A stretch of DNA of 31,923 nt from a virus (IMGVR_UViG_3300020198_000059:1-31923); one strand, 5' to 3'; positions 9,683 to 31,923 are shown, numbered from the stretch's first letter. Notes: generated from the letters alone by a model not told the origin. Numbers and translations are program-made.

Positions 9683-9995
9683 AGACTGGATAAACTCTCC
9701 TGAATATAAAGAGTTAGTAGAAAGAATGCAAAAATCCCAAGAAGAGCAAATCAAAACTCTTGAGGATAACTTAACCCAGGATATGGTAGCTGACATACGC
9801 CACTGGCGTGTTGGTGAAGCTCCTGATAATTTAGATGCCAATAACTGGCGAGATATATCAAAACTCTTTGTAGAAAAATACCCAGAGTTTTCTGATAAAT
9901 ACAATATAGTAATGGATGATCAAATATCCGGTATGCTACTATGCGATGTTGCTATGTCATTACTTAAACAAAAACCTGAAGAAGGATGGAACTAG
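9669..9995 (+). CDS. Small helical protein, unknown
   Basis: 108 residues overlapping its neighbours by 14 and 10 nt. A charged helical N-terminus (YKELVERMQKSQEEQIKTLEDN) could form a coiled coil; the middle holds HWRVGEAPDNL and NNWRDISKLFVEKYPEF. No motif or cysteine-rich site other than one Cys near the end. It directly precedes the nuclease gene, so it may be an accessory of that enzyme; this is position-based only. Confidence 0.6.
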   Translation: MLTLKDWINSPEYKELVERMQKSQEEQIKTLEDNLTQDMVADIRHWRVGEAPDNLDANNWRDISKLFVEKYPEFSDKYNIVMDDQISGMLLCDVAMSLLKQKPEEGWN

Positions 9996-11014
9996 AAAGT
10001 ATTATGGAAGAATCTATAGATACTTTGGAGAAAGATTTCTATAGTAAAAAATTCTTTTACTCATACAGCAGCTTAAATAAAATAATCTGGAATCCTCAGA
10101 TTTTTTATCAAATGTATGTATTAGGACTTAAAGAAGAAAGACTAGATACCCATCTAGTTCAAGGTAAACTAATCCACCTATTACTATTAAAACCAGAGAA
10201 ATTTGAAAAAGAGTTTATAATGACTCCTTCTTCACTTCCATCAGGTAATCTAAAAGTAGTAGTTGACAGAGTATTTAAACACCACATAGAACTTAGCCGT
10301 AATGGTGATGACCGTACAGAGCTTGCACAATTTGACGGAGCCATATTGGATGTAATGAAGAATATAAACTACTTCCAAAATCTAAAAACTGATAAGCAAC
10401 GTATAGAAAAAATCATTACTACAGAAGCTATTTCTTATTGGGAATTTCTAAAAACTAAGGGTAACAAGACCCTTATTGATCCTGATATCCTTAAATTCTG
10501 CACAGACGCAGTAGATATTATCAAGACTAACGAGCAAGTTTGTAAACTTATAGGTTGTGAAGTTAGTGAGTTTGATAACACGGAGGTGATAAACGAATTA
10601 CCAGTAACTGCCGAGTTCAGCAATAAAGCATATGGTCTAAAAGGTATTATTGATAACATAGTAATTAATCACGACAAGAAGATAATCTTTGTTAATGATA
10701 TCAAGACTACAAGTAAGGATTTAAAAGACTTCCCTGAAACTATAGAATACTATTCTTACTGGTTACAAGCTATCATATATATGATCATTGTTAACCATAT
10801 ATACAGTGATATTACCGGTCAAGGATACCAAACTAAGTTTCACTTTGTTGTCACAGATAAAAACTTCCAAAGTTACGCATTCCCTGTATCTGAAGAAACA
10901 CTGAATAATTGGTTAGAGAGATTCCAGACTACAATAGCTAAGGCAGAATGGCACTATGCAAACAAAAACTATAAACTTCCTTACGACTTTGCTAAAGGAC
11001 TTGTCGTTCTTTAA
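9986..11014 (+). CDS. PD-(D/E)XK exonuclease, RecB/Cas4-like
   Basis: 342 residues. The motifs of this nuclease superfamily are present in order: an N-terminal helical part with VQGKLIHLLLLKPEKFEKEF (G-x-x-x-H of motif I, about residues 58-62), Asp223 in GLKGIIDNIV, Asp238-Ile-Lys240 in NDIKTTSKD, and a Q-motif helix SYWLQAIIYMI (about 258). It most resembles the DUF3799/RecB-like nucleases found beside phage single-strand annealing proteins, where they resect 5' ends; the Sak4-like ATPase and SSB here would be its partners. ATG 9986 overlaps the preceding gene by 10 nt; ATG 10004 is an alternative start. Confidence 0.85.
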   Translation: MELESIMEESIDTLEKDFYSKKFFYSYSSLNKIIWNPQIFYQMYVLGLKEERLDTHLVQGKLIHLLLLKPEKFEKEFIMTPSSLPSGNLKVVVDRVFKHHIELSRNGDDRTELAQFDGAILDVMKNINYFQNLKTDKQRIEKIITTEAISYWEFLKTKGNKTLIDPDILKFCTDAVDIIKTNEQVCKLIGCEVSEFDNTEVINELPVTAEFSNKAYGLKGIIDNIVINHDKKIIFVNDIKTTSKDLKDFPETIEYYSYWLQAIIYMIIVNHIYSDITGQGYQTKFHFVVTDKNFQSYAFPVSEETLNNWLERFQTTIAKAEWHYANKNYKLPYDFAKGLVVL

Positions 11015-16982: not shown

Positions 16983-19900
16983 TTATTTGTAAAAATAGTT
17001 ATCTACTCGGATATTCCATTCTTTTCTAAAGTCATCATCTACAGATGCTGCAATTAATAAAAACTCTTTACCTATAGGAACTGACCTTAAGAGCTGCTTC
17101 ATAGGCATAGCTTTCTCTGTTCTTTCTTGATCACCTGTAGCCATACCATATCCTTCTTGAAAAGTAGCCCCAATAAACCTAGCCATATCTTCAGCAAGAC
17201 CTAATACTGGCACAGGATTTTTTACTAATTTTACAAATTCAATAGGGTTATAGTAGAAAATAAACTCATTATAATATTTCTTAAAAGCTCTTGTTAAATA
17301 TTTTTTAAATCCACTATGTTTACGATCGTCATCTCCTGTAGAAGTCATTGAAGTAACAGCAGCTATAGATGCAGTGATAACAATCAATTCAGCCATCATG
17401 CTTCTTAAGTTAGCAATATAAAGATCAATAAACTCACCTTCTGTAATAGTAAAGTCTTCTCCTTTCTCTATAGCTTTAGCTTTAAGTTCTCTATATCTAA
17501 TTTTAGCTAATTCTTCTGCATCGTGACCAAACCCAGTTACTATAGACTTTAGAAGAGTAGGGAATCTTTTAGAAAAAACATCTCCAAAGAATACATTAAA
17601 CTTACCGTAGGTCCAGTTTTGAAGTTCATCATCATACTTAAGGCCAGATATACGCTCTTCAAACATTTCAGGAATCCAGTTTCTAAACTGCATAAGAGAT
17701 GAACCCAGTAATGTGGTTCGTATACCATTAATATCATCCCTAGTTTGGTTACCAATAATTCTTTTGTTAACTCCCTTGATCTTATCTCTAAAGTCTAATA
17801 GAGTGTCGCTCTCAGAATCTATACCAGGAATTTCAAAACTACCATCATCTTTTATCTTACCTATAGCAAATAAGCTTTTTGTTTCTTGAAGCTCACCAAC
17901 CTCTTTATCAATATTTTTCCTCATCTGTTCTCTTTCAGAGTCTGGTAAATCGTAAAACTTATTATTATAATCATACTTTGCTTTTACAAAGTTTTGTATA
18001 CTAACAATGTTTCCGGTACTAGGATCAATCATATGTTCCAGCATCAATGCAATAGCTACAGGATATTGTACACCACGATCTGCTATACGCTGAAGAACAA
18101 ACGCATTATTAGAAGTAAGAACTTTAGTAGAAGTAGATAAAGAAAGCTGGTCTACCATTGTATCCATAGCATTCTCCTGAAGAATATTTAAATACTTCAA
18201 GGCAGCCATTGCTTTTTTAGAACTGCTAGTGTAGTACATACTCTTTGCCCAAGTGTTTTTAGTAAAGAATATTCCTTTTTGAGCAGTAAATAAAGTGTTA
18301 CCAGTACCACCTACAAACTGAGCAGAAGCTGATACTAAATTAAAAGCGAGAGACTTAAGTGAGAAATATCTCATTGCAGCAGTGATGGTCTTTAATAAAG
18401 AGTACTTCTTACCAGCAAAACGAATTTCATAGTCTGTTATGCTTCCGCTAGTCCTATTATAAAGATAGTAATTCACGAAATCTTCAAGAAGCTTGGCATT
18501 GCGGTCATTCTTATTAATTGCTTTAACCTTTCCATTTACTATAACTTCGTTATTAAAAAGATCAGTTACCAAGCTTTTCTTTTGACGTTCTACTTCTATT
18601 AGATTAATAGCATCATCTTCTATAGAAGACATAGCTTCATAGTTATAAACATGCCTTGTCCATACAGCAAACACTTTAAATAGATCTCTTGACTTAGCTG
18701 TATAGTCCATATATGTATTACCAGCAGCATCTTTCCTTTCAGCCCCCATGTCCTTTATAAAATAAACAGGAATTCTGTTTATAATAGATCCATCAGTAGG
18801 ATCAATTTGAGGAGTGTACTTGGTTCCTGAGTCTACCTCAAGTTCATCAAAAAATTTTCCTAAAGATAAAAAGTTACTTACATCTCCAAAGACAAGATTC
18901 TCTAGCTTACTAGCATGTATAGAAGGAATAAACTTAGGAGAATATCTATCTAGCATGCCTAAGTCCTCAGCTTTACGAGTGAGAGTTTGAAAATACTCAT
19001 ACATATCTACAAGAGGCTTGTTAATATAGTTACCTACTGAGTCTTGCTTATAAAGTTCTTTCCACTTAGCAGTGAGCCAATTATCTATAGGCTTAAGAAA
19101 CAGATTACGAGGATTAAGAAGAGCGATCATATTAAGCTGACCCCTTTTATCTAATATGTTATGTTGATCAATCCAGTCCTGAATCTTTTTTTCTACAATC
19201 TTTTTATTAGTCTCTTCATCACTAGAATATATAATAGCCTTAAAATAGCTTTTCTGTCTAGCAAGAGCAGCATCATACTGATTATTTGGATCAAACTGAA
19301 GATTATCTTTTAACCATTTAACATCTCCTTTAGCTATAGCTTGTTTTTTTAATCTGTTAAATTCTGAATCATACTTCTCTAAGAAGTTACCATTCCAGTT
19401 TCCTTTACTATCAATCTCAAGAATCATCTCCATAGCTTTATTAGCAGATAATCCTTTTTGAGAAGACCATTTAACAAAGTCTTCTTTTAGAGCTTTTAAT
19501 TTCTCAATACTTTCTTTTACGCGGGTATCTCTGATACCTTGAGCTTTACGTAGTATCTTTGAAAAGATTCTAAAAGCTTTCTGCTTAATATTACTCAAAG
19601 ATTGCCATAAACCAGAAATAGTATCTATAGTAGCTTCAGGATCTAATAAATTTAATATACCTCTTTCTTCTCCTAGTTTAACAGATTGTTCTCTTTGATA
19701 CTCTTTCATCTGCATAATTAATCCGTTCACTCTAGAAGTCATTTGTAAGAACTGACGATTTAGCTTTGCATACTCACTCTTTACTTTCTTATCTTCTGAC
19801 TCTTCTGCTTCAGAAGAATATTCTTCCATAAGATCATAAAGCATGACACCACTATCACTAAATACCTCTAGAATCTTAATACCCTCTACTATGTCTTTGC

Positions 19901-22900
19901 CTGTAAGAGTGTTATTCTCTATCTTATCTGAGTATTTTTTAAACTCAATCATACCAAGTTCTATAAGCTTATCTACACGCTTACGAAGTTGTAGATCTCT
20001 TAGAACTTCACGAAGACTTTTTAACTCTTCTCTCTTATTATTTATTTCAGCAATACTATATCGTGTACTTTTAATCTTATCATAAATACCGTTCATCCTT
20101 TCTATTAAAGCATCAAGCTGCTTGTCACCAGTAGGCTCATTACGTAAAAGAATAGGTAGCAAGTAAGACTTATTATCTGGTATTTGACTAGGATCTATTG
20201 ATCCTATTTCTAAGTTTCTTAATGAAGAAATATCACCTCTTACATCATAGTTAAACTCAGTACGGATAGGAATAGCTCTTATTGTACCAAAATTCATAAA
20301 ACCATACTCTTTGGCTAAGATTTTACGATACTCGTCTAACTGTATCTTAAATACAGTTTCCTTGTATTCTTTTATATCGGTTTGATCTTTACCCACCTCA
20401 GTACTTTTCCAGTCATATATATCAACTTCCATGGAAGGCTTTACAACTAGCAAGTCTATACTGCCTCCAATACTTGCTTTTTTGTCAAAAATTTTAACCT
20501 CAGTTTTAAATAAAGTTCCAGGTTCATACTGGTTCATTACTGCCTGAACATAATCATTCAATCTCTTGTATATAGAAGCGTTCAGCTTTGTTTTAATAGG
20601 TACTTGTATAGCTCGTTTTGTACCATCAGGGTTAGTCCAGCTGTTAACAATATTCTGCATCTCTTCATGGATAATATCTCCATAATCAGCTTTTACAAGA
20701 TCTAAAACTCTTTGACGGTCTGTACGCTCATCACTTCGGAAGATCTTTTTTAAATATCTATCTACGTAAACTCCTGTTACTGAACCTTTTGCAAGGACTC
20801 CGTTATAGTAGTAATTATGTCTTTTTTGACTGGTTCGAGGGTCTACTGTATTATCTAAAGTAATTTTATCTTGATCAGCAGTCAAGTTACCGACAGGATC
20901 TGCATACTGATAAAACTCGCCGTTTAGAATAGCATTAACATCTAATGCAGATATATCAGTATCTAGAATTTGTTCTGCTGCAGTTTCAAATGGGTTTTCA
21001 TCAGCTCTTGCAAATAGATTAGTAATAAACTTCCATACTTTTTGCCACCAGGTCAAAGCATCAGCCACCCTTGCATCTGTCTCATCACCAAGATTAAGAC
21101 GTATAATATGTTCAGCAATGAGCTTACCTATAGCTTCTTTCTTTACTTTATCAAAGTTTACAGTACCATCTAAGTTTCTGTAAGCCTTAAGATTTTTGTA
21201 CTTATCTAATGTAGAAGCGTATATCTTGTAGTTAGTAATCTTACGGAACATCTCCTTATACAGAGGATTACCTGGACCAAGCATCTCCACAAAGAAGTGT
21301 GCAGCTTCTTCCGGAAGAGTATCTATCTGTTCTTTACCATCAACCACCTGGATTATACGATTAAGCATATCAGCCTTTGCAGTGGCAGAAAGTTTATTGC
21401 CAGCTGCATCACGAATTTCGTTCACACTCTGTATAGACACACCTATCTTTTCCAAGAACCTACTAACACGGTTGTTCAACTCTTCATTAGTAGGCTCGGC
21501 AGCTGCTGTTTGTTCAGTCTGCAGCATGATAGATTCTGATACCATGACAGGCTTTAACTCAATCTCGTTCCAAGTATTGCCATATTCATCTGTAATCTGT
21601 TTAGGATTATATCCTTGTTTCTTAAGAATATTATTTATAGTGTTTTCATAGAATTTCCAAATAGAACTAAAAACAGCAAATCCTTCTTCGTCAACTCTTT
21701 CAAGTTCTGCTTTAATTGCAGATATTTCACGTTGTATATTCTGTTTAGCTCTTTCTAGTTTTTCTTTTTGGAGAACTTTAAAAAATTCTTTTTGTGATAT
21801 TTCTTTACCATTTTTATAAGTAACTCCTTCTAAAATATCAACTTTATAAACATTACCTTCACTATCTTTTTTAAAAGATTGTAATTCAGTTAGTGCTAAT
21901 CCATATTTTACAATATTACTATTATCAGAACTTTCAAGCATTTCTTTTAGCTTTTTAAGTCTATCTTCTTTTTCTTTCTTAAATGTTTCTAATGTTGTCT
22001 GTCCTTCTATCTTATTAGCTGTATCTCCTTTAGGAAATAATACTTTCTCATACCCTTTCTTAGCAGAGTCTTGTACAATAGATTTAACAAAGAATGTTAC
22101 CCAGTTATTATCTTTATTTAGAAGTTGTAGGAATTGGTTTTCATTATTAAATTCTTTTTCTTTTAAATACCACATACCATTCATAGTATAATAAGTATTT
22201 CCATCTAAGTTTATTGTTTGTCCATCAGGTCTTTCTCCTCTACTTTCTCCTAAAACTTCCTTAGCTTTAGCTCTAATTTTATCTAATAATCCAGCGTATT
22301 CTCCTGTATTTGTGTATGGAATAGAACCAACACCATCTCTTTGTTGCGTTTTTGATTTTACTAAAAGTTCTTTATCCCTACCCTTCTGAAACAGATCAGA
22401 TTGTACTTCTAGTATTCTACGAGTTTTAGTAGGTTCTCCGCCTCTTGTTCTATCAACTAAAGTTTGATATCTTAAATCATCTACATCAGTAGGTTCTTGA
22501 AATAATTCTGCATTTATAGTTTGTTCATCACTTCTAAACCAACCTATACCTTGATCTGTAGCAAACTGAGCATGTCCTTTAATAGCAGGTGTAACAGCTG
22601 GTGTAGCTATTTCATTCTCTGTGTAATTAGTACCACCTGGTACTGTCATGTTGGAATAATATCGTGAAGGTTTATCTTGTCTACTATTAAAAGCATTTTC
22701 ATACTCTTCTTTAGTAATAACTATTTTCTCATCTTTTTCACCAAATCCTTTTTTAATATATTTATTCTCATAGTTTTTATAGTATTTAAACTCACCTCTT
22801 CTAAATCCTTTATCCATCAGGTCATGTCCTATTGTAGTTTCATAATTTTCACTTTCTCCATAGTTTTGATTGCTCTTAGGGTCAATTGATAGATTAATCT

Positions 22901-23543
22901 CAACAGCATAACTATAAGTAGCAGCAAATGAAGCCAGCTTTTCTTCTACAGTATTTCCTGGCTGGTCTATAAGCAGTGCAAGCTGGTTTCTTGGTACACC
23001 CAGCTGTAAAATCTTGTTAAACAATATCTCAGGACTAATAGACCTATTACGTTCCCAGGATTGTATCTTAGACATATTATCAGTTACGACCTTGATAGCT
23101 TTAAGTGTATACTTGATATTTTGGTCATCATAAATAACAGGTTCTATTTCCCGAGGTTGACCAAAGGTAATTCTATCATCAGTAAGTGATCTAAAGGTTT
23201 CCCCAAATGGATCTTCTATTGTTTCTTTAGCAATCTTGTCAACTTCTTCAATTAACGGTTCTCCATTTTCATCTAGCTTTTCATCAAACTGTGTAGCAAG
23301 ATTTTCTATACTAACTTCATCCATCCCAGGATCTGTTAAGTCAAGTCTAGCAAGCTTTTCCCAGTCTCCAAACTTCTGCTTAAACTGATCAGTGTAAGCA
23401 TATGCCCAAAGTTTAATAGCTTCTTCTTTATCAGATACTGTATTGTTAATTTCTTTAAATAGCTGAGAGTCCTGCCCGTTAGGAGCAAGTACTCTAGATA
23501 TTTCTTTCGTTTCAGGATTACGAATAATGCTACAACTTGTCAT
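16983..23543 (-). CDS. Giant polyvalent virion-cargo protein
   Basis: 2186 residues, ATG at 23543, 6 nt downstream of the RNAP gene stop. N-terminus MTSCSIIRNPETKEI...APNG and a WAYAYTDQFKQKFGDWE segment match the opening of crAss-like giant proteins. Domains by motif: (1) about 295-505, a polyvalent-protein domain with GGTNYTE, HAQFATDQGIGWFR, ILEVQSDLFQKGR and KGYEKVLFP; (2) about 725-800, zincin-like helix LPEEAAHFFVEML (Glu745-Glu746, His749); (3) about 950-1100, a PD-(D/E)XK nuclease with His959-Glu960, Asp1030 in GGSIDLL, Asp1044-Trp-Lys1046 and a Q-motif; (4) a long helical region with charged coiled coils (1150-1450); (5) conserved helical part with SLAFNLVSASAQFVGG and QFRNWIPEMFEERI; (6) a hydrophobic segment AELIVITASIAAV near 2055. 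By family knowledge such proteins are packaged and injected with the genome. Confidence 0.85.
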   Translation of the reverse strand: MTSCSIIRNPETKEISRVLAPNGQDSQLFKEINNTVSDKEEAIKLWAYAYTDQFKQKFGDWEKLARLDLTDPGMDEVSIENLATQFDEKLDENGEPLIEEVDKIAKETIEDPFGETFRSLTDDRITFGQPREIEPVIYDDQNIKYTLKAIKVVTDNMSKIQSWERNRSISPEILFNKILQLGVPRNQLALLIDQPGNTVEEKLASFAATYSYAVEINLSIDPKSNQNYGESENYETTIGHDLMDKGFRRGEFKYYKNYENKYIKKGFGEKDEKIVITKEEYENAFNSRQDKPSRYYSNMTVPGGTNYTENEIATPAVTPAIKGHAQFATDQGIGWFRSDEQTINAELFQEPTDVDDLRYQTLVDRTRGGEPTKTRRILEVQSDLFQKGRDKELLVKSKTQQRDGVGSIPYTNTGEYAGLLDKIRAKAKEVLGESRGERPDGQTINLDGNTYYTMNGMWYLKEKEFNNENQFLQLLNKDNNWVTFFVKSIVQDSAKKGYEKVLFPKGDTANKIEGQTTLETFKKEKEDRLKKLKEMLESSDNSNIVKYGLALTELQSFKKDSEGNVYKVDILEGVTYKNGKEISQKEFFKVLQKEKLERAKQNIQREISAIKAELERVDEEGFAVFSSIWKFYENTINNILKKQGYNPKQITDEYGNTWNEIELKPVMVSESIMLQTEQTAAAEPTNEELNNRVSRFLEKIGVSIQSVNEIRDAAGNKLSATAKADMLNRIIQVVDGKEQIDTLPEEAAHFFVEMLGPGNPLYKEMFRKITNYKIYASTLDKYKNLKAYRNLDGTVNFDKVKKEAIGKLIAEHIIRLNLGDETDARVADALTWWQKVWKFITNLFARADENPFETAAEQILDTDISALDVNAILNGEFYQYADPVGNLTADQDKITLDNTVDPRTSQKRHNYYYNGVLAKGSVTGVYVDRYLKKIFRSDERTDRQRVLDLVKADYGDIIHEEMQNIVNSWTNPDGTKRAIQVPIKTKLNASIYKRLNDYVQAVMNQYEPGTLFKTEVKIFDKKASIGGSIDLLVVKPSMEVDIYDWKSTEVGKDQTDIKEYKETVFKIQLDEYRKILAKEYGFMNFGTIRAIPIRTEFNYDVRGDISSLRNLEIGSIDPSQIPDNKSYLLPILLRNEPTGDKQLDALIERMNGIYDKIKSTRYSIAEINNKREELKSLREVLRDLQLRKRVDKLIELGMIEFKKYSDKIENNTLTGKDIVEGIKILEVFSDSGVMLYDLMEEYSSEAEESEDKKVKSEYAKLNRQFLQMTSRVNGLIMQMKEYQREQSVKLGEERGILNLLDPEATIDTISGLWQSLSNIKQKAFRIFSKILRKAQGIRDTRVKESIEKLKALKEDFVKWSSQKGLSANKAMEMILEIDSKGNWNGNFLEKYDSEFNRLKKQAIAKGDVKWLKDNLQFDPNNQYDAALARQKSYFKAIIYSSDEETNKKIVEKKIQDWIDQHNILDKRGQLNMIALLNPRNLFLKPIDNWLTAKWKELYKQDSVGNYINKPLVDMYEYFQTLTRKAEDLGMLDRYSPKFIPSIHASKLENLVFGDVSNFLSLGKFFDELEVDSGTKYTPQIDPTDGSIINRIPVYFIKDMGAERKDAAGNTYMDYTAKSRDLFKVFAVWTRHVYNYEAMSSIEDDAINLIEVERQKKSLVTDLFNNEVIVNGKVKAINKNDRNAKLLEDFVNYYLYNRTSGSITDYEIRFAGKKYSLLKTITAAMRYFSLKSLAFNLVSASAQFVGGTGNTLFTAQKGIFFTKNTWAKSMYYTSSSKKAMAALKYLNILQENAMDTMVDQLSLSTSTKVLTSNNAFVLQRIADRGVQYPVAIALMLEHMIDPSTGNIVSIQNFVKAKYDYNNKFYDLPDSEREQMRKNIDKEVGELQETKSLFAIGKIKDDGSFEIPGIDSESDTLLDFRDKIKGVNKRIIGNQTRDDINGIRTTLLGSSLMQFRNWIPEMFEERISGLKYDDELQNWTYGKFNVFFGDVFSKRFPTLLKSIVTGFGHDAEELAKIRYRELKAKAIEKGEDFTITEGEFIDLYIANLRSMMAELIVITASIAAVTSMTSTGDDDRKHSGFKKYLTRAFKKYYNEFIFYYNPIEFVKLVKNPVPVLGLAEDMARFIGATFQEGYGMATGDQERTEKAMPMKQLLRSVPIGKEFLLIAASVDDDFRKEWNIRVDNYFYK

Positions 23544-23549
23544 AGTTTT

Positions 23550-26500
23550 CTATTGCTTATTACAGTTCTTAGATTCTTTTTTCTTACGCTCAAGAACCAC
23601 TTCAATATCCTCGCCAGTTTTATTTGATTCTTCAATGAGCTTTCGAATACTATTCATTGGCTTACCTTCTTGCTTAAAATCAATAGTTTTCTTATCTTTG
23701 TCTTGAATTTTTTGGTGCTTGAATCTCTTGCTCCAGGTTAGGTACAAGGTCTCCACAAAAATACGCTGAGAACCTTTTGGTCCAGTATGATAAACTGTAA
23801 ATGTAGCCCCAATCTCTAGCAAGTAATCAATAAACTGACTATCCACATTTGGCATATCTCCTACTACAAACTCAGCACCTTTTTTCTTTGCTTTTAATAT
23901 AGCTTCTTTTACCTCTTCTGACAAAGGCTTGCCTTCTCTAAATGATTTATTTCTAGCTAACATAATTATTTTAGCATTATCATTTAAAGAACTCGGAGCA
24001 ATAGCCACTTTGCTTTTTGTGAAATTTACAGCAGCTACAATATCTTCAATAGGTAATTTCAATATAGTATTAGCTGACGTAAGAGTAGAAGATGAAGTTG
24101 TTTTGCCTATTTCACCAATAAACCCATCAGCTACTTCTCTCATAGCAGCATCTTTACCGTCACCTTCTATAGTACCTTTACCTTTGTCTATAAACCCAAA
24201 CTTATACCCTTTAAAACCAGTTATATCTATTTCATCTTCTATATCATCATCTTCTTCTTGTCTGCCAAATATATCAGGAAATAAATCTTTTACAAGAGTG
24301 AATCCAGATCTTTTCCTTACAGAAGTAGAGAGCATAGCAGATGAGTTATTAGACTCAATAACTGATGTAGCATCTGAATCACTGTAAATCTCTGTAAGTT
24401 TATTACCTGCTCCCATTTTGTTTATTGGCATATATATTACTTTTCCTTTCTCAGTGGCATTAGTACGCTGGAATAATATACTTACAAAAGCTTCCCAACC
24501 ACGTCCTGATTTTTTAAGTCTCTTCACTTCCTCTTTTGTTAAAGCAGGATTAAGAATACTCTTAGTATAGAAATCTTGTTTTGATAGAGAACTTAGCTGA
24601 CTTATAGCAAGCATATTATCCTTTATCTTTATCCAGGAAGGAGCCTTAGGAACAATTGCTTTGTTATACCAGTTGTTCTGATGGAATGTTTTCCAAACTT
24701 GATCTACATCCAGCTCACGGGCTACATTAAATCTACTAAAAATTTCTTTTAACATCTCACTATAAATCTCAGTACTTAATACTTTTTTATAATCCATGTA
24801 GCTACTATTTAAACCACTCTGCAATATACTAAATTTAGCAAGATCTACAACAAATTCTTTTATAACAAGATCTCCAGTTTCTTCAGCATAGTCATGAAGA
24901 TTATTCATAGCTTCTATCACTTTGTTCACCTCAAAAGTATCAAGACGCTGACGGAATAGTTTGATATTTCCTGTGTCATTTGTATTAGCAGGAATAAGAG
25001 GAAGGAGTTCTTGAACAATAAGATTTTCCCTAACTCTAGGATCGGCATTTATATCCTCTTTACGAAGCTCATATAAACGATTTGCCATAGAAGTTTCACC
25101 AAAGAACATAGAATCGTAGAGCTGGTTAAGAGATTCCTCCACACCATCGGGATTCTTAGTTTTAGTTGTATGAAGTATATAATTTAAAACATGGTTCTGG
25201 TATCTATTTACAAGAGCAATACCATCATTTTTAGTTATGAAAATATCTGGATCATCTATTTTAGCATATAGAGGTTTAAACACTTCTTGTATTGTAGGAT
25301 CTAGAGTGATAAAAAAGTTCTGAAACATGTTAAAGACATCTTCCTTTTGAGTTTTTAACTCTCCTAAGAATGTCTTATTTAGTATATCATCTGGGTTTGC
25401 AATAAAGTTTTCTGCTCTAGAACGTTCCCAACGTGATACTTGTAAAACACTTTCCTGTATAGTTTTTGTCTTGTTAGTATCATAACTAATAGCTTGCATA
25501 AAGTTACTTATGAATCTAGCTTGAGTTTCATAACGTAAGAATGCCATTAACGTAGCTATTTGTAATCTTGGATTAGCTTTTTCACCATCAGCAACAGCTT
25601 GTTTTAAATCTGATACATCAAACTTCTCATATGAGTTATATACAGTATTTAGCTGACGAATTATGCCGTTCTTAATCTTCATCTCAATCATTGGATTTGA
25701 CTCCATTGCAGAGAGAGTAGACATAATGTCTCCGTTAGTCAACTTATCATAATATGGAGCTATCACTTTAAAGAACATATCTTCTCTAATAAAATCTTCG
25801 TTATTAATCTTCTTAAAGTTAGAGTCTCTTTTAGCTAATTCTGTAAAGTAGCTATCCATAATAGGCTGTGAGAACAAATAAGCTATTTGTTCTACAGGAA
25901 CACCCATATGCATTAGATAGAACCAAGTGTTGGCACTCTTTAGTGATAAGTTTAAATCAAATACAAAAGGGTCTTTCCAACCATCTACAAATCCAGAAGT
26001 ACCCTCTGAGTTTAAATCAGATATTCTTTTACCTGAAGTATCTGTACGATATCCTATAGCATAAGTACCATCATTAAGTTTTTGGTGATGATCTAGTTTA
26101 ATACTGATGTCTTCTTTTTTAATAATACTATCAATCTTTTCTTTCTTAGAATTCTTCTTCTTTTTAGAGGCCTTCTCAAAAAGATATTTTATACTATCAA
26201 TCTTATAGTTTCCTGTAAGTTTTATACCAGCTACCTGAGCCATCGTATGGAAGGTAGTATGCAAAGCAGAAATACCTACAAGTCTTTTAGATGTCAAATA
26301 ACGCTCACGAGTAGACACGGCCCCAGCAAAAGATCTAAGATAGGCGGATGATTTTTCATTGTCTTCTGTCTTAGTACCTGCAGCTATTTTTAAATATCTT
26401 ATTCTAGTGGCAAGAGTTTTTAAAGTTATTGTAGTGTTAGGACTAACTAATTGAGAATAGTTTTCAGGACGTAAAATCATCTTAGACATAATCTCAATCA

Positions 26501-29500
26501 TCTTATTCTGAAGACCTTCTTTACTAGTATCACTAGGCTCTACATACTTAAGAATTTTCTTACCTTTAAACTGCTTATTATAGTTTTGTATAGATTCTTT
26601 AATTGTACTAAGAGTTCTCACACTAGCATCCATACCAGGAGCAAGAGATTCAAGACTAAACGGTGCGTTCTTATATAGTCGACCAGATTCTGTAAAGGTG
26701 GCACGGTTAATCTTTTTAAAATTCTCAGTTGTATATTGAGCAACTGCAGCTTTAGCTACGTCTTCTACAATACCTCTTCTTACTAAGTCTTTAACCATAA
26801 AGTCTCTGAACTCACTAGAAGCATAATCAGGTCCAGCAACTTCATGCTTTGGCATATAGAGATTAAGTTTATCTATATCAAAGTCAGATCCGGTCTTACC
26901 TACAATCTCAGAAGGAACAACAATAATATCCCCTGCTTCAGGTGGTAAAAATCCTTTTACAATAACACTTTCTATAGAGTTTGGTGCCTGAGTAGGAATA
27001 CGGAAACAAACAAGATTAAGCAAACGCTTATCCATATTAGCTAAACCCTTTTCAGGAATTCTATAAATACCATTTATTAACTTAAGTCCAAGTTCTTCTG
27101 GACTAACGTCAGTATAAGGCCACCCAATATAAACTTCCATACTCTTAACCTGACCGTTCTCCATTCTATAGAAGTTAAGATCAGAAGAAGCTAGTCTTAA
27201 ACTAGCTCTCTCTTTTTCTGTAAGAGAAGAAGGATCAGTTGTCTTTACGTAAAGATCATCTTTAAGATAGACAAAAGATCTGTTTTTAAATTCATATAAA
27301 GTATTTGCAGCCTGAGTAGAACTCTTTCCGTTAACTTTCTCACTTATAACTCGGCTATCAACAATAGCGTTAAGAATATTATCAATCTTATCTCTATTAA
27401 TAAGCATATCAAACTGATAATCAAGATCTTTGGTATCTATATTATAGTTGATTGCTTCTATAACATTATCAGGAAGATCTCTATTCTCAGCTTCTGAGCG
27501 GAGAAGATTAACCAGATTCTGTAAGTTACGAACTCTGTATCCACCATTTTTAGTATCAACCTCTAAACCAAATTCCTTCAAGAGATCTTGCTTACCCAGT
27601 TTAAACATCTTTATAAGAGTGTCGTTATACTCTTCTATGAGACTTTCTATCTCTTCATTTAAAGGAAGACCATTCTCATAAAAGTTACTCATTATAATCT
27701 TAGTAACCTGAGTACCTCTTACAACATGCTTCTTAGGTTTGCTAGACTGTTCAACTTGAATCCCGTAGAACCTAGAGTACATGCTCTGAATAGGAAGATC
27801 TTTAGGAAGATCATACTTATTATTAACTATCTGTAGATTAACATCCCCCTGATTATCATAAACAGATATAAATTCACCAGACTTATTAGTTACATTACCA
27901 ACCTTTTCTCCAGATTCAAAACCTATAATATCAACCTGCTGTGTTTGAGCTGCTAAGTATAGCTTTTCAAATTTAGTTCCTTCAACATGACGATAGAACT
28001 TAGGCTGAACTGCGTGCTTAAGAAACTTAGGTATCATGAGTTCATACTCAGAGAAGTTACGATTAACTACATCTCCATGACCATAGCCAAAGTACTGAGG
28101 CTTTAACATTGGAAATATATAACCAGGACTACCTTTCTTATAAATAGCCATGGAATCAGCTAATTCTGACTTATTATATGATTTATATTGAGGATCTTTC
28201 TTTGTAATTTGACCATTTGATCCTTCTATAATACCTGATCTAACTAGTTTTTCATAAGCAATCTCATAGTTCCATTGTGCTTCCATCTGAGGAGTAAATT
28301 TACTACTCATAAATAGAATATCTCTAATGATATCTGGCATGCCCATAGCCATAGAATCTGCCTCATTAAGTTTAAGATAGTATTTAAGTGCACCACTATA
28401 CTCACCATTCTTCATACGAAAGCTTGTAAGCTTTCCATTTGAGTCAAAGTTACCACCAATAGATACAGATGCAGTTTCGGGATCTACATTATCGTTAAGC
28501 ATCTCAGAATACATCTTCTCAGCAATATCTTTATAGAACAAGCTAACAACATCTAAGTCTTTAAAAGATATAACTCTCATTGTTTGATGTAAGTCCTTGC
28601 TGCGAATCTTCCCGTCATTACGGCTCATTTCTCCATCCATCCATTGTATTACTCCATTATCTTCAACAAAAGCTTCTTTAGTAGATGTTGCACCGTTAGC
28701 ACGTTTTGGTAGTTCTTTATACATAGAAGGATGTCCATATATCAACTTATGCTGCTCCGTAGTAAGAATATCTTCATTTACAGTTAACAACATAGAAAGA
28801 AGTCTAACCTCTTCTGGAGAATAACTATCTCTTTCAACAAGCTGTCCATCTTCACGATACTTAATAGCCTTACCGTCACCAAGACCAAAAAGCTGATTTA
28901 GAGTATCATTATCAATAGCATTTGTTATCATACGATTTGATGTAAAGCCAGAAGGTGTAGTGAATATATCTTCAGCCATGAGCATCTCGTATGTTGCATC
29001 AGTAGAGCGAGAAATGTGATCAGAGATATCTTTTGTAAGAGCCTCTTTGTTTTCGTCTACGAAGTCAGTATAGTTTTTATCACCATCAAATACTTCTTCT
29101 TTAAACTTTTGTTTTAATTTATCTGATATAATATCTTGAAAGTGACCAAGTTGGACAACTCCATTACTATAATACTGAATATTTACAGCCTTTTCAGCCT
29201 GTTGCTGTGCGGCATGTAGTTCATCAGAAAGATGATTCAGATAGAGATCTACTATCTTTTTTTCTTCTCTCTCAGTGTAACCTCTTATATCATCTAGCTT
29301 TACTAAAGGTTTTCCAGGAATACCGATACCATACTCAGTATTTTTATCAGAGTTAATTACAGAAAGCGGAATGTTATTTAAAAGATAGTGAATCTTAATA
29401 GCAACCCTTTCTGGAAAAAGAAGCTTAGCAGTATTCTTACCATCAACTTCTGAAATACCTGTACCAGATATAACATGATAGATAATATCTGAACCTGGTT

Positions 29501-31923
29501 TACGCTTACCATCTTTATCAAATAAAAGCCCACCCTTCTTTAAGAGTTCTGAACTAGATTGATAAGGGTGGAACACCACCTCATCATTTTCGTTTAGGTA
29601 GCCTAACCATGGGCAGGTAAGAACAAGCTCTTTTTGGTTACGTACATTGTTAACAATATTAACCATATTACCCCATAATGAAGGAATACCTACAGAGTAC
29701 TGAGGCTGACCATCTGCGTTAAGATAACTTAGAACATTGTCTTCAGTATTAAAAGACATCTCTAAGTTAATGAGTTTATTAATACGACCACCAATCACCT
29801 CGTTTCCAAAGATTTCAGAAGCTGTTTTTATGTCATCTCTATATACCGCAGAGTTAAGTATCTGAATAGAATCTTCTCTTATCTGAGCAGCAAAGCTTTC
29901 AAGCTGTTCCGGTGAAGCAGAAAACTGAATACCAAAATAGTTAAGAACACTTAGAGCATCCAGTAAAGTGTAAGCACTTGATTTACTAAGCTCATAGAAA
30001 TCTTGAAGTTCAAAGAATTCATCAGATGTTTTATTTATAAATAGTTCTCCATTTTTACCAGGACGGAACAAGTTTGACTTTTTACTCTGTAATCTAGTTT
30101 GTAAATTGTTATTCCAGTTTCTCTTTATACGTTGGTTATTTACATTCATCAAAGGATTTAGATCATAAATATTTCCTTCTTCTTCAATGATTATTTTACT
30201 AGGAGTAAACCTTGTGTTACTAAAAGATTTAGTAAAAGCTACTTGAAGTAAAAGATCTTCTTTAGGAAGACTAGATTGAGAAATTCTATTTCCGCGAGTA
30301 TCTTCATAACGAAGTCTACGTTTAAGATTCTTAATCCAACCAAAGCCATTTCTATACTGACCGGTACTGTCTACAAATTTATTATCAAGCTTATCAAACA
30401 TAAGCTTTAGAGTGTCCTTTCTTACACCATCTTCACCAATTATACTTACTATGTTGCTGAGTTCATTTAATAAAATAGTATGAACTCTATCTGCGTCAAC
30501 AAGCTTAGGAAGGTTTGTATTAAGACTTCTAACTAGTTTATTTCCACTAGTTTCTGGTAAAGAAGCTAGAAGAATCATTACGTTTACATCTGTAGCTTTT
30601 CTTGGATCTATAGTGATACTTTCTCTAATACCAAGAGTATCAGTAACTTCTATTTCATCTACTTCTATGGACTCAAAGTTTACACCATACCTCTGCAAGT
30701 TCTTTTTAAAGAGGTCATAGAGCTCTTCTTTATTATTTCTTACAGAGTTGACCAACCTTTGAGAAGCTATCCCTAGGTCACGCTCAATATTACTAAACGC
30801 TATTTCAAGATTATCTTTAAGAAGTGCATTTGATTCTTTCCTATCTAGACTACTAAGAATGCTATTAATGTTAGATCCTTTTGTAAGTAGTTCGGTAAAG
30901 AAGTAATAGTTAAGTCCGTCTAATATTTCAGATGTTTCCGCTACAGTAGTATCTGTAATAGCTGCTCTATATACAGGAGTATCGTAATAACTCTGCTCAC
31001 GTATAGGTTTTGCATTTCTATAAATACCCGTTGCAATATTCTTAAAGATAGTATTTACATGTCCCTCTAACTCTTTGTTTTGCTGTGAGTTAAGACCAAA
31101 TAAACCTTTTATAAAATCAAGTAGTTGCTTAAAGAAACTTTTAAATGCTGCTTGAGCAGGCTGTTTTTTATTAAGCATGTAGTCTCTAAACTCTTCTGCG
31201 AGCATTTCACGTATATCATAGTTAGAAGCTTCAGAGTATTCCTTTGTAATCTTACTAAAAGGATTAGTAAACTTACCAGGTCTAGATCTAAACTCATCAG
31301 AGAGCTTAGCTTTCTCTTCATCTGTTAAATAACTAGTCCATACACCTTCAAATGCTTCATGGAAGCCTGTACCAATCTCAGCATTCTGATAGATATATAA
31401 AGCTGACTTTTTAAACTGACCCCAAGCTTTACCGCCTATAAGATGGGCCATACGTTTAACAACAAATTGAGGCAAGTACTTTTCTAAAAAAGACTGAAGA
31501 GCTTGAAAATCTTCAGTTTGACTAACTTGCTCCGCTGTAGCAAAACGAAAAGGAGCCTCATCTATATCAGCGTTTAGCTGAGATATAAGTAATCTTTTAA
31601 GATTATTCTTAGCAGCAAAAATGTTTGACCCAAGACTCATTGTCACTTTAGCCTCCGCCACTTTGTTTCCTTCCTCATTGTAAACAATAGCAGAAAGATC
31701 ATTTCCTTTTAAAATGGCAAACTTTACAGCATCTTCTACATTAGTATGCTTAATTTCTTGTCCATCAGCTTTCTTATCAGAAACAGGCTTACCTTCTAAA
31801 GCAGCTAGTTCTGCATCATACTTTTTAAGAAGTTCTAAAAACTTTTCAAACTTTTCTCCGCCTTTCTCATCAACAACCTTATCTGTTTCAGACTTAATAG
31901 AATTAAGCTTATTTACAAAATCT
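23550..31923 (-). CDS. Phage virion RNA polymerase, giant, 5' end missing
   Basis: The frame ends at 23550 and is open to the right edge, where no stop or ATG/GTG/TTG occurs in the last 87 codons; GTG 31661 is only the first start codon seen. At least 2790 codons are visible; numbering below is from GTG 31661. Catalytic loop: DFDID, Asp1593/1595/1597 (26871-26885) followed by KLNLYMPKHE, preceded by AGDIIVVPSEIVGKTGS. This DxDxD double-psi beta-barrel signature is that of the crAss-like phage RNAP (characterised in phage phi14:2 gp66), related to eukaryotic RNA-silencing polymerases and YonO. N-terminal: a degenerate zincin-like motif HEAFE (101-105) after AWGQF. C-terminal (about 2560-2620): IMLARN, VVGDMPNVD and YHTG, a SLOG/DUF2493-like domain, then a basic tail. 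In that phage the enzyme enters with the DNA and transcribes early genes. Confidence 0.9.
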   Translation of the reverse strand, partial: DFVNKLNSIKSETDKVVDEKGGEKFEKFLELLKKYDAELAALEGKPVSDKKADGQEIKHTNVEDAVKFAILKGNDLSAIVYNEEGNKVAEAKVTMSLGSNIFAAKNNLKRLLISQLNADIDEAPFRFATAEQVSQTEDFQALQSFLEKYLPQFVVKRMAHLIGGKAWGQFKKSALYIYQNAEIGTGFHEAFEGVWTSYLTDEEKAKLSDEFRSRPGKFTNPFSKITKEYSEASNYDIREMLAEEFRDYMLNKKQPAQAAFKSFFKQLLDFIKGLFGLNSQQNKELEGHVNTIFKNIATGIYRNAKPIREQSYYDTPVYRAAITDTTVAETSEILDGLNYYFFTELLTKGSNINSILSSLDRKESNALLKDNLEIAFSNIERDLGIASQRLVNSVRNNKEELYDLFKKNLQRYGVNFESIEVDEIEVTDTLGIRESITIDPRKATDVNVMILLASLPETSGNKLVRSLNTNLPKLVDADRVHTILLNELSNIVSIIGEDGVRKDTLKLMFDKLDNKFVDSTGQYRNGFGWIKNLKRRLRYEDTRGNRISQSSLPKEDLLLQVAFTKSFSNTRFTPSKIIIEEEGNIYDLNPLMNVNNQRIKRNWNNNLQTRLQSKKSNLFRPGKNGELFINKTSDEFFELQDFYELSKSSAYTLLDALSVLNYFGIQFSASPEQLESFAAQIREDSIQILNSAVYRDDIKTASEIFGNEVIGGRINKLINLEMSFNTEDNVLSYLNADGQPQYSVGIPSLWGNMVNIVNNVRNQKELVLTCPWLGYLNENDEVVFHPYQSSSELLKKGGLLFDKDGKRKPGSDIIYHVISGTGISEVDGKNTAKLLFPERVAIKIHYLLNNIPLSVINSDKNTEYGIGIPGKPLVKLDDIRGYTEREEKKIVDLYLNHLSDELHAAQQQAEKAVNIQYYSNGVVQLGHFQDIISDKLKQKFKEEVFDGDKNYTDFVDENKEALTKDISDHISRSTDATYEMLMAEDIFTTPSGFTSNRMITNAIDNDTLNQLFGLGDGKAIKYREDGQLVERDSYSPEEVRLLSMLLTVNEDILTTEQHKLIYGHPSMYKELPKRANGATSTKEAFVEDNGVIQWMDGEMSRNDGKIRSKDLHQTMRVISFKDLDVVSLFYKDIAEKMYSEMLNDNVDPETASVSIGGNFDSNGKLTSFRMKNGEYSGALKYYLKLNEADSMAMGMPDIIRDILFMSSKFTPQMEAQWNYEIAYEKLVRSGIIEGSNGQITKKDPQYKSYNKSELADSMAIYKKGSPGYIFPMLKPQYFGYGHGDVVNRNFSEYELMIPKFLKHAVQPKFYRHVEGTKFEKLYLAAQTQQVDIIGFESGEKVGNVTNKSGEFISVYDNQGDVNLQIVNNKYDLPKDLPIQSMYSRFYGIQVEQSSKPKKHVVRGTQVTKIIMSNFYENGLPLNEEIESLIEEYNDTLIKMFKLGKQDLLKEFGLEVDTKNGGYRVRNLQNLVNLLRSEAENRDLPDNVIEAINYNIDTKDLDYQFDMLINRDKIDNILNAIVDSRVISEKVNGKSSTQAANTLYEFKNRSFVYLKDDLYVKTTDPSSLTEKERASLRLASSDLNFYRMENGQVKSMEVYIGWPYTDVSPEELGLKLINGIYRIPEKGLANMDKRLLNLVCFRIPTQAPNSIESVIVKGFLPPEAGDIIVVPSEIVGKTGSDFDIDKLNLYMPKHEVAGPDYASSEFRDFMVKDLVRRGIVEDVAKAAVAQYTTENFKKINRATFTESGRLYKNAPFSLESLAPGMDASVRTLSTIKESIQNYNKQFKGKKILKYVEPSDTSKEGLQNKMIEIMSKMILRPENYSQLVSPNTTITLKTLATRIRYLKIAAGTKTEDNEKSSAYLRSFAGAVSTRERYLTSKRLVGISALHTTFHTMAQVAGIKLTGNYKIDSIKYLFEKASKKKKNSKKEKIDSIIKKEDISIKLDHHQKLNDGTYAIGYRTDTSGKRISDLNSEGTSGFVDGWKDPFVFDLNLSLKSANTWFYLMHMGVPVEQIAYLFSQPIMDSYFTELAKRDSNFKKINNEDFIREDMFFKVIAPYYDKLTNGDIMSTLSAMESNPMIEMKIKNGIIRQLNTVYNSYEKFDVSDLKQAVADGEKANPRLQIATLMAFLRYETQARFISNFMQAISYDTNKTKTIQESVLQVSRWERSRAENFIANPDDILNKTFLGELKTQKEDVFNMFQNFFITLDPTIQEVFKPLYAKIDDPDIFITKNDGIALVNRYQNHVLNYILHTTKTKNPDGVEESLNQLYDSMFFGETSMANRLYELRKEDINADPRVRENLIVQELLPLIPANTNDTGNIKLFRQRLDTFEVNKVIEAMNNLHDYAEETGDLVIKEFVVDLAKFSILQSGLNSSYMDYKKVLSTEIYSEMLKEIFSRFNVARELDVDQVWKTFHQNNWYNKAIVPKAPSWIKIKDNMLAISQLSSLSKQDFYTKSILNPALTKEEVKRLKKSGRGWEAFVSILFQRTNATEKGKVIYMPINKMGAGNKLTEIYSDSDATSVIESNNSSAMLSTSVRKRSGFTLVKDLFPDIFGRQEEDDDIEDEIDITGFKGYKFGFIDKGKGTIEGDGKDAAMREVADGFIGEIGKTTSSSTLTSANTILKLPIEDIVAAVNFTKSKVAIAPSSLNDNAKIIMLARNKSFREGKPLSEEVKEAILKAKKKGAEFVVGDMPNVDSQFIDYLLEIGATFTVYHTGPKGSQRIFVETLYLTWSKRFKHQKIQDKDKKTIDFKQEGKPMNSIRKLIEESNKTGEDIEVVLERKKKESKNCNKQ

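Follow-up and report, generated by a model that had tools for sequence, protein, structure and literature searches.

A multi-domain protein encoded beside the RNA polymerase gene of a crAss-like phage as probable virion cargo with exchangeable N-terminal domains

The ORF at 16983–23543 on the minus strand (ATG start, 2186 aa), whose product we call X, encodes a real, well-conserved multi-domain protein. The window, which is the whole stretch of 31,923 bases analyzed here, is a virus record from IMG/VR and a fragment of a crAss-like phage. The best overall explanation, which we consider likely, is that X is virion cargo of the gp49/gp65 type, in which a constant C-terminal half is combined with exchangeable N-terminal passenger domains. 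Homology, gene order, domain boundaries and conservation of catalytic residues were observed directly for X. The protein family is known and its nuclease has already been noted in general; the combination of modules appears to be new. A first-pass annotation of the sequence had described one chain with three putative effector domains. Every motif that it named was located in the ORF, but three effectors is an overstatement, since the nuclease is joined by a zincin-like domain that lacks the first zinc-binding His and by a GGTNYTE domain without known activity. Only one recognizable and probably active enzyme is found among the domains of X.

Upstream of X, on the same strand and across a gap of 6 nt, lies an ORF (23550–31922) that is open at the window end and encodes a virion RNA polymerase homologue. 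In tblastn searches it is similar to RNA polymerases annotated in crAss-like phages; it has the catalytic motif DFDID at about 26871–26885, and an HMM built from this ORF and its relatives matches crAss001 gp50 (E 7e-43). X closes this RNA-polymerase block and lies in convergent orientation to replication-type genes. An arrangement of RNA polymerase followed by an X-type gene is also found in crAss001 (gp50–gp49), phi14:2 (gp66–gp65), cr4_1, cr55_1, cr118_1 and cr109_1. The earlier annotation had missed both the crAss-like context and the association of X with the RNA polymerase. The polymerase ORF itself has HEAFE at 31347–31361, where its relatives in cr4_1 and cr108_1 have HExxH, so a degenerate zincin-like site seems to be present in the large polymerase protein as well.

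Scans of full-length X against Pfam, PHROGs and NCBIfam gave no match, and two weak PDB matches (phmmer, best E 0.015) were taken as chance. The best GenBank relative is the cr108_1 orthologue (Steigviridae), matched by tblastn over residues 699–2137 (7e-46), which resembles X in its EExxH-type motif (EECAH), nuclease and C-terminus but is without the GGTNYTE domain. The gp49-type proteins match X over the zincin-like and C-terminal regions. The conserved C-terminal core (residues 1686–2034, 17442–18488) matches those of cr85_1 (1.6e-8), bajarodcaudo virus 1 (3.6e-8) and Dulem virus 41 (1.1e-8) in blastp, and an HMM of the zincin region matches crAss001 gp49 (5.8e-15), where a homologous EExxH region is present. 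The relationship to the gp49-type proteins of the crAss001 family is distant, with about 20–28% identity over parts. As with X, the genes of crAss001 gp49 and phi14:2 gp65 follow directly after that of the RNA polymerase; X exceeds these proteins by about 800 aa, and the GGTNYTE and nuclease domains were detected in neither of them. The presence of gp49 in crAss001 virions is reported from mass spectrometry (PMC10172136), and MS/MS detection of gp65, whose slot X holds, is noted in its sequence record. The earlier suggestion that X is injected is therefore well supported, by its homology to gp49 and its position in the slot of gp65, both of which occur in virions. Virion presence is known only for these two proteins, and by analogy with them X would be expected in the virion of this phage.

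The late hydrophobic segment that had been noticed before could be placed at residues 2049–2067 (17343–17399), where a hydrophobic helix is followed by an Asp-rich stretch. A hydrophobic helix with a subsequent acidic run occurs in 42 of 46 distinct relatives, mostly about 115–185 residues from the end, and is shared by crAss001 gp49, phi14:2 gp65 and the Leptolyngbya phage protein. This is above the controls: the signature was absent from all 60 C-termini of RNA polymerases and occurred in 2 of 48 other ORFs and in 15 of 920 shuffled sequences. The constant C-terminal half probably functions in packaging, in passage or contact with a membrane, or in binding to the polymerase.

The enzyme that can be recognized in X is a RecB-type PD-(D/E)XK nuclease domain (residues 935–1121, 20181–20741). 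Residues H959, E1015, D1030, D1044, K1046, Q1068 and Y1072 compose the motif H...E...D...DxK...QxxxY, with GSIDLL...DIYDWK at residues 1027–1046. The nuclease segment alone matches Pfam PDDEXK_1 with 22.9 bits (cut-off 22). H959, E1015, D1030, D1044 and K1046 are invariant in the alignment of the closest relatives (A3, 14 sequences, about 30% identity). Loss of catalytic residues was looked for in a wider set: among relatives with the domain, nearly all retain the D-D-K triad, and the two exceptions, L029 (16380–18050) and L176 (2–4951), have a nuclease domain from which catalytic residues are lost. The predicted model (mean pLDDT 76.5, higher in the core) matches the fold of AddAB best (Z 10.2), followed by MGME1 (9.8) and Cas4 (8.7), and also that of RecB and Dna2; Foldseek alone found no match with an E value of 0.001 or lower. 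Conservation and predicted fold thus support the claim of a full-motif nuclease, and the search for lost residues did not refute it. Judging from sequence and model, X probably has an active metal-dependent DNA nuclease of the RecB type, whose activity and substrate we infer. A PD-(D/E)XK domain in a large transcription-associated protein of some crAss-like phages has been published (PMC7886860).

The GGTNYTE/EVQSD domain region (residues 142–677, 21513–23120) has the motif GGTNYTE at residues 303–309 (22617–22637) and EVQSD at residues 379–383 (22395–22409). A related-locus search with full-length X as query found none, whereas the domain alone (tblastn, residues 255–690) found 67 IMG/VR loci. 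Many residues are invariant in a 45-sequence alignment (A2), in which the GGTNYTE motifs are among the best-conserved stretches. With so many loci and invariant residues, and a match to the family's own HMM, the region is not a chance similarity. In a separate scan for the GGTNYTE pattern in DNA, 65 of the 80 loci among the matches listed had the domain. An RNA polymerase is present in a neighboring ORF at 46 of the 68 GGTNYTE loci, including the window, and in the same ORF at 11, although these counts are not independent events because some loci are near-identical. Most of the 11 loci without a detected polymerase end at a contig end, an explanation that does not apply to L043, L049 and L072.

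The aligned GGTNYTE family has no relative in Pfam, PHROG or PDB, and a search of 50,697 annotated phage records gave no match even at E 5. Strict patterns in cellular genomes retrieved only three contigs, from draft or metagenome-assembled genomes, which are possibly viral contamination. On sequence grounds, the domain is part of a wider GGxNYRE/EIQSDWHQ family that occurs in other phages, with which it has common motifs and profile similarity (hhalign probability 95%, E 3.4e-8, 186 columns); HMM matches in GGTNYTE ORFs reach down to about 1e-9. One member of that family, L208, has an EIQSDWHQ-type domain and ART-PolyVal in one ORF. Association with crAss-like polymerase blocks distinguishes the GGTNYTE form from the EIQSDWHQ loci, none of which (120 loci) has a crAss-like RNA polymerase within the locus DNA retrieved. 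This domain and its link to the polymerase blocks seem undescribed in the open-access literature searched. The predicted model of the region was too weak (mean pLDDT 66.9) and gave no fold match, its N-terminal part having been barely searched; a GNAT-like reading of the motifs receives no support from it.

Five relatives have an X gene that is split within the GGTNYTE domain by an ORF of 211–286 aa that by eye resembles GIY-YIG endonucleases (L059 8853–9484, L060 8925–9556, L062 1946–2791, L063 3679–4524, L070 10706–11407). There are two sites of interruption, one right after GRDK behind EVQSD and the other between AKKG and Y. The interrupting ORFs look like a mobile intron; an Rfam scan of the interrupted relatives matched no intron model.

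Comparison with orthologues suggests where domains may be exchanged. The X-type proteins of cr4_1 and cr55_1 (Suoliviridae) resemble X in having an N-terminal effector slot, a zincin-like domain, a PD-(D/E)XK nuclease and a gp49-type C-terminus, in that order, but their slot holds an ART-PolyVal domain (above the Pfam cut-off) instead of GGTNYTE and their zincins have HExxH (HEILH, HELVH). The cr4_1 protein is annotated as 'exonuclease', and the Leptolyngbya phage relative has a GNAT domain. The N-terminus of X (residues 1–110, 23214–23543), with 46% identity over 43 aa to the cr4_1 protein, has kept an FKQKFGDW module and a DENGEPL linker, both of which lead straight into ART in the gp47-type protein of cr85_1. 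The latter, a second cargo-type protein in Steigviridae (L004 16457–24016), has a C-terminal ART-PolyVal domain (7e-21) and a weak PD-(D/E)XK match, so effector domains seem to move between large cargo proteins. The X-type genes of cr4_1 (L008 19541–24952) and cr109_1 (L325 2563–6708) contain 18 and 33 in-frame stops, respectively; both become open reading frames once TAG is translated as Gln, in agreement with the stop-codon recoding published for crAss-like phages. X also resembles the polyvalent proteins (Iyer et al. 2017, PMC5512222), which combine unrelated domains on one likely injected chain, in its zincin-like domain and in the ART of its orthologues. It differs from them in that no Pfam domain besides PDDEXK_1 was found in X.

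The zincin-like region (residues 691–860, 20964–21473) raises the question whether the passenger domains are active. Its model is helical with moderate confidence, and matches to the nuclease part took up the results of the fold search. The zincin-like helix described before is present, yet its motif is EEAAH (residues 745–749, 21297–21311) and not the zinc-binding HExxH. E745, E746 and H749 are invariant in A3. Zincin-like domains, the most frequent of the polyvalent domains, were proposed to divide the polypeptide into units by cleavage (PMC5512222). Processing of X in this way after injection, by an active metallopeptidase, could be considered in view of the true HExxH in many of the more distant GGTNYTE-bearing proteins. 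However, all 14 sequences of the window's branch have Glu in place of the first zinc-binding His, as do cr108_1 and crAss001 gp49 (EEFAH), which makes peptidase activity of X unlikely. The domain has probably lost it, and we regard such self-processing as very improbable. The same 14 EExxH sites could suggest that all N-terminal domains are inactive structural remnants, retained just for the bulk that they add to a cargo protein, and the broken nuclease triad in two relatives and the survival in X of the linker without the ART enzyme that it precedes elsewhere would fit this. The invariance of D1030, D1044, K1046 and H959 despite about 30% identity, together with the strong conservation of the GGTNYTE motifs, argues against it, and a purely structural role is unlikely.

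The nuclease could also serve the phage's own DNA and not attack that of the host, either by trimming or processing the incoming genome end or by aiding the start of transcription or replication within the virion RNA polymerase complex. The domain sits in the transcription block, and DNA ends are a common substrate of RecB-type nucleases. Further PD-(D/E)XK enzymes of crAss-like phages are found in structural and replication blocks (PMC7886860), and a likely PD-(D/E)XK exonuclease, with motifs judged by eye, is encoded in the replication block of the window at 9986–11014. Against this, only about one third of the GGTNYTE-bearing relatives have the nuclease in the same ORF, and crAss001 gp49 and phi14:2 gp65 gave no significant nuclease match. 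The nuclease would therefore not be a constant need of entry or transcription, and its absence from gp49 means that it is not essential to the family. A role on the phage's own DNA is a serious possibility, but one that we do not favor. More tentative is a reading of the GGTNYTE/EVQSD domain as a new enzyme or cofactor for the crAss-like virion RNA polymerase, or a modifier of a host target at entry, that marks a large uncultured branch. The cargo would then join injected effectors (GGTNYTE, ART, nuclease, GNAT), exchangeable in the manner of a cassette, to an ejection core that stays constant; we put this forward as a conjecture, rather doubtful in its full form.

Returning to X as gp49/gp65-type cargo, the following course of events can be proposed. 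X and the giant virion RNA polymerase would be produced together; once packed into the capsid, X would leave through the tail in the company of the polymerase, before the DNA, and refold in the cell. The N-terminal passenger domains, among them the nuclease and the GGTNYTE domain, could act there within the first minutes. The delivery step is modeled on the homologues, and the action in the cell is what we infer from the domains. A role against host defence is plausible as a hypothesis.

The GGTNYTE domain is a good target for structure determination, since it is widespread and strongly conserved and has no model in the databases. Among the viruses of the human gut, crAss-like phages are the most abundant, and little is known of how they gain control of a cell. 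Should their polymerase-associated cargo indeed carry effector domains that can be exchanged, the opening steps of infection could be tested one domain at a time.
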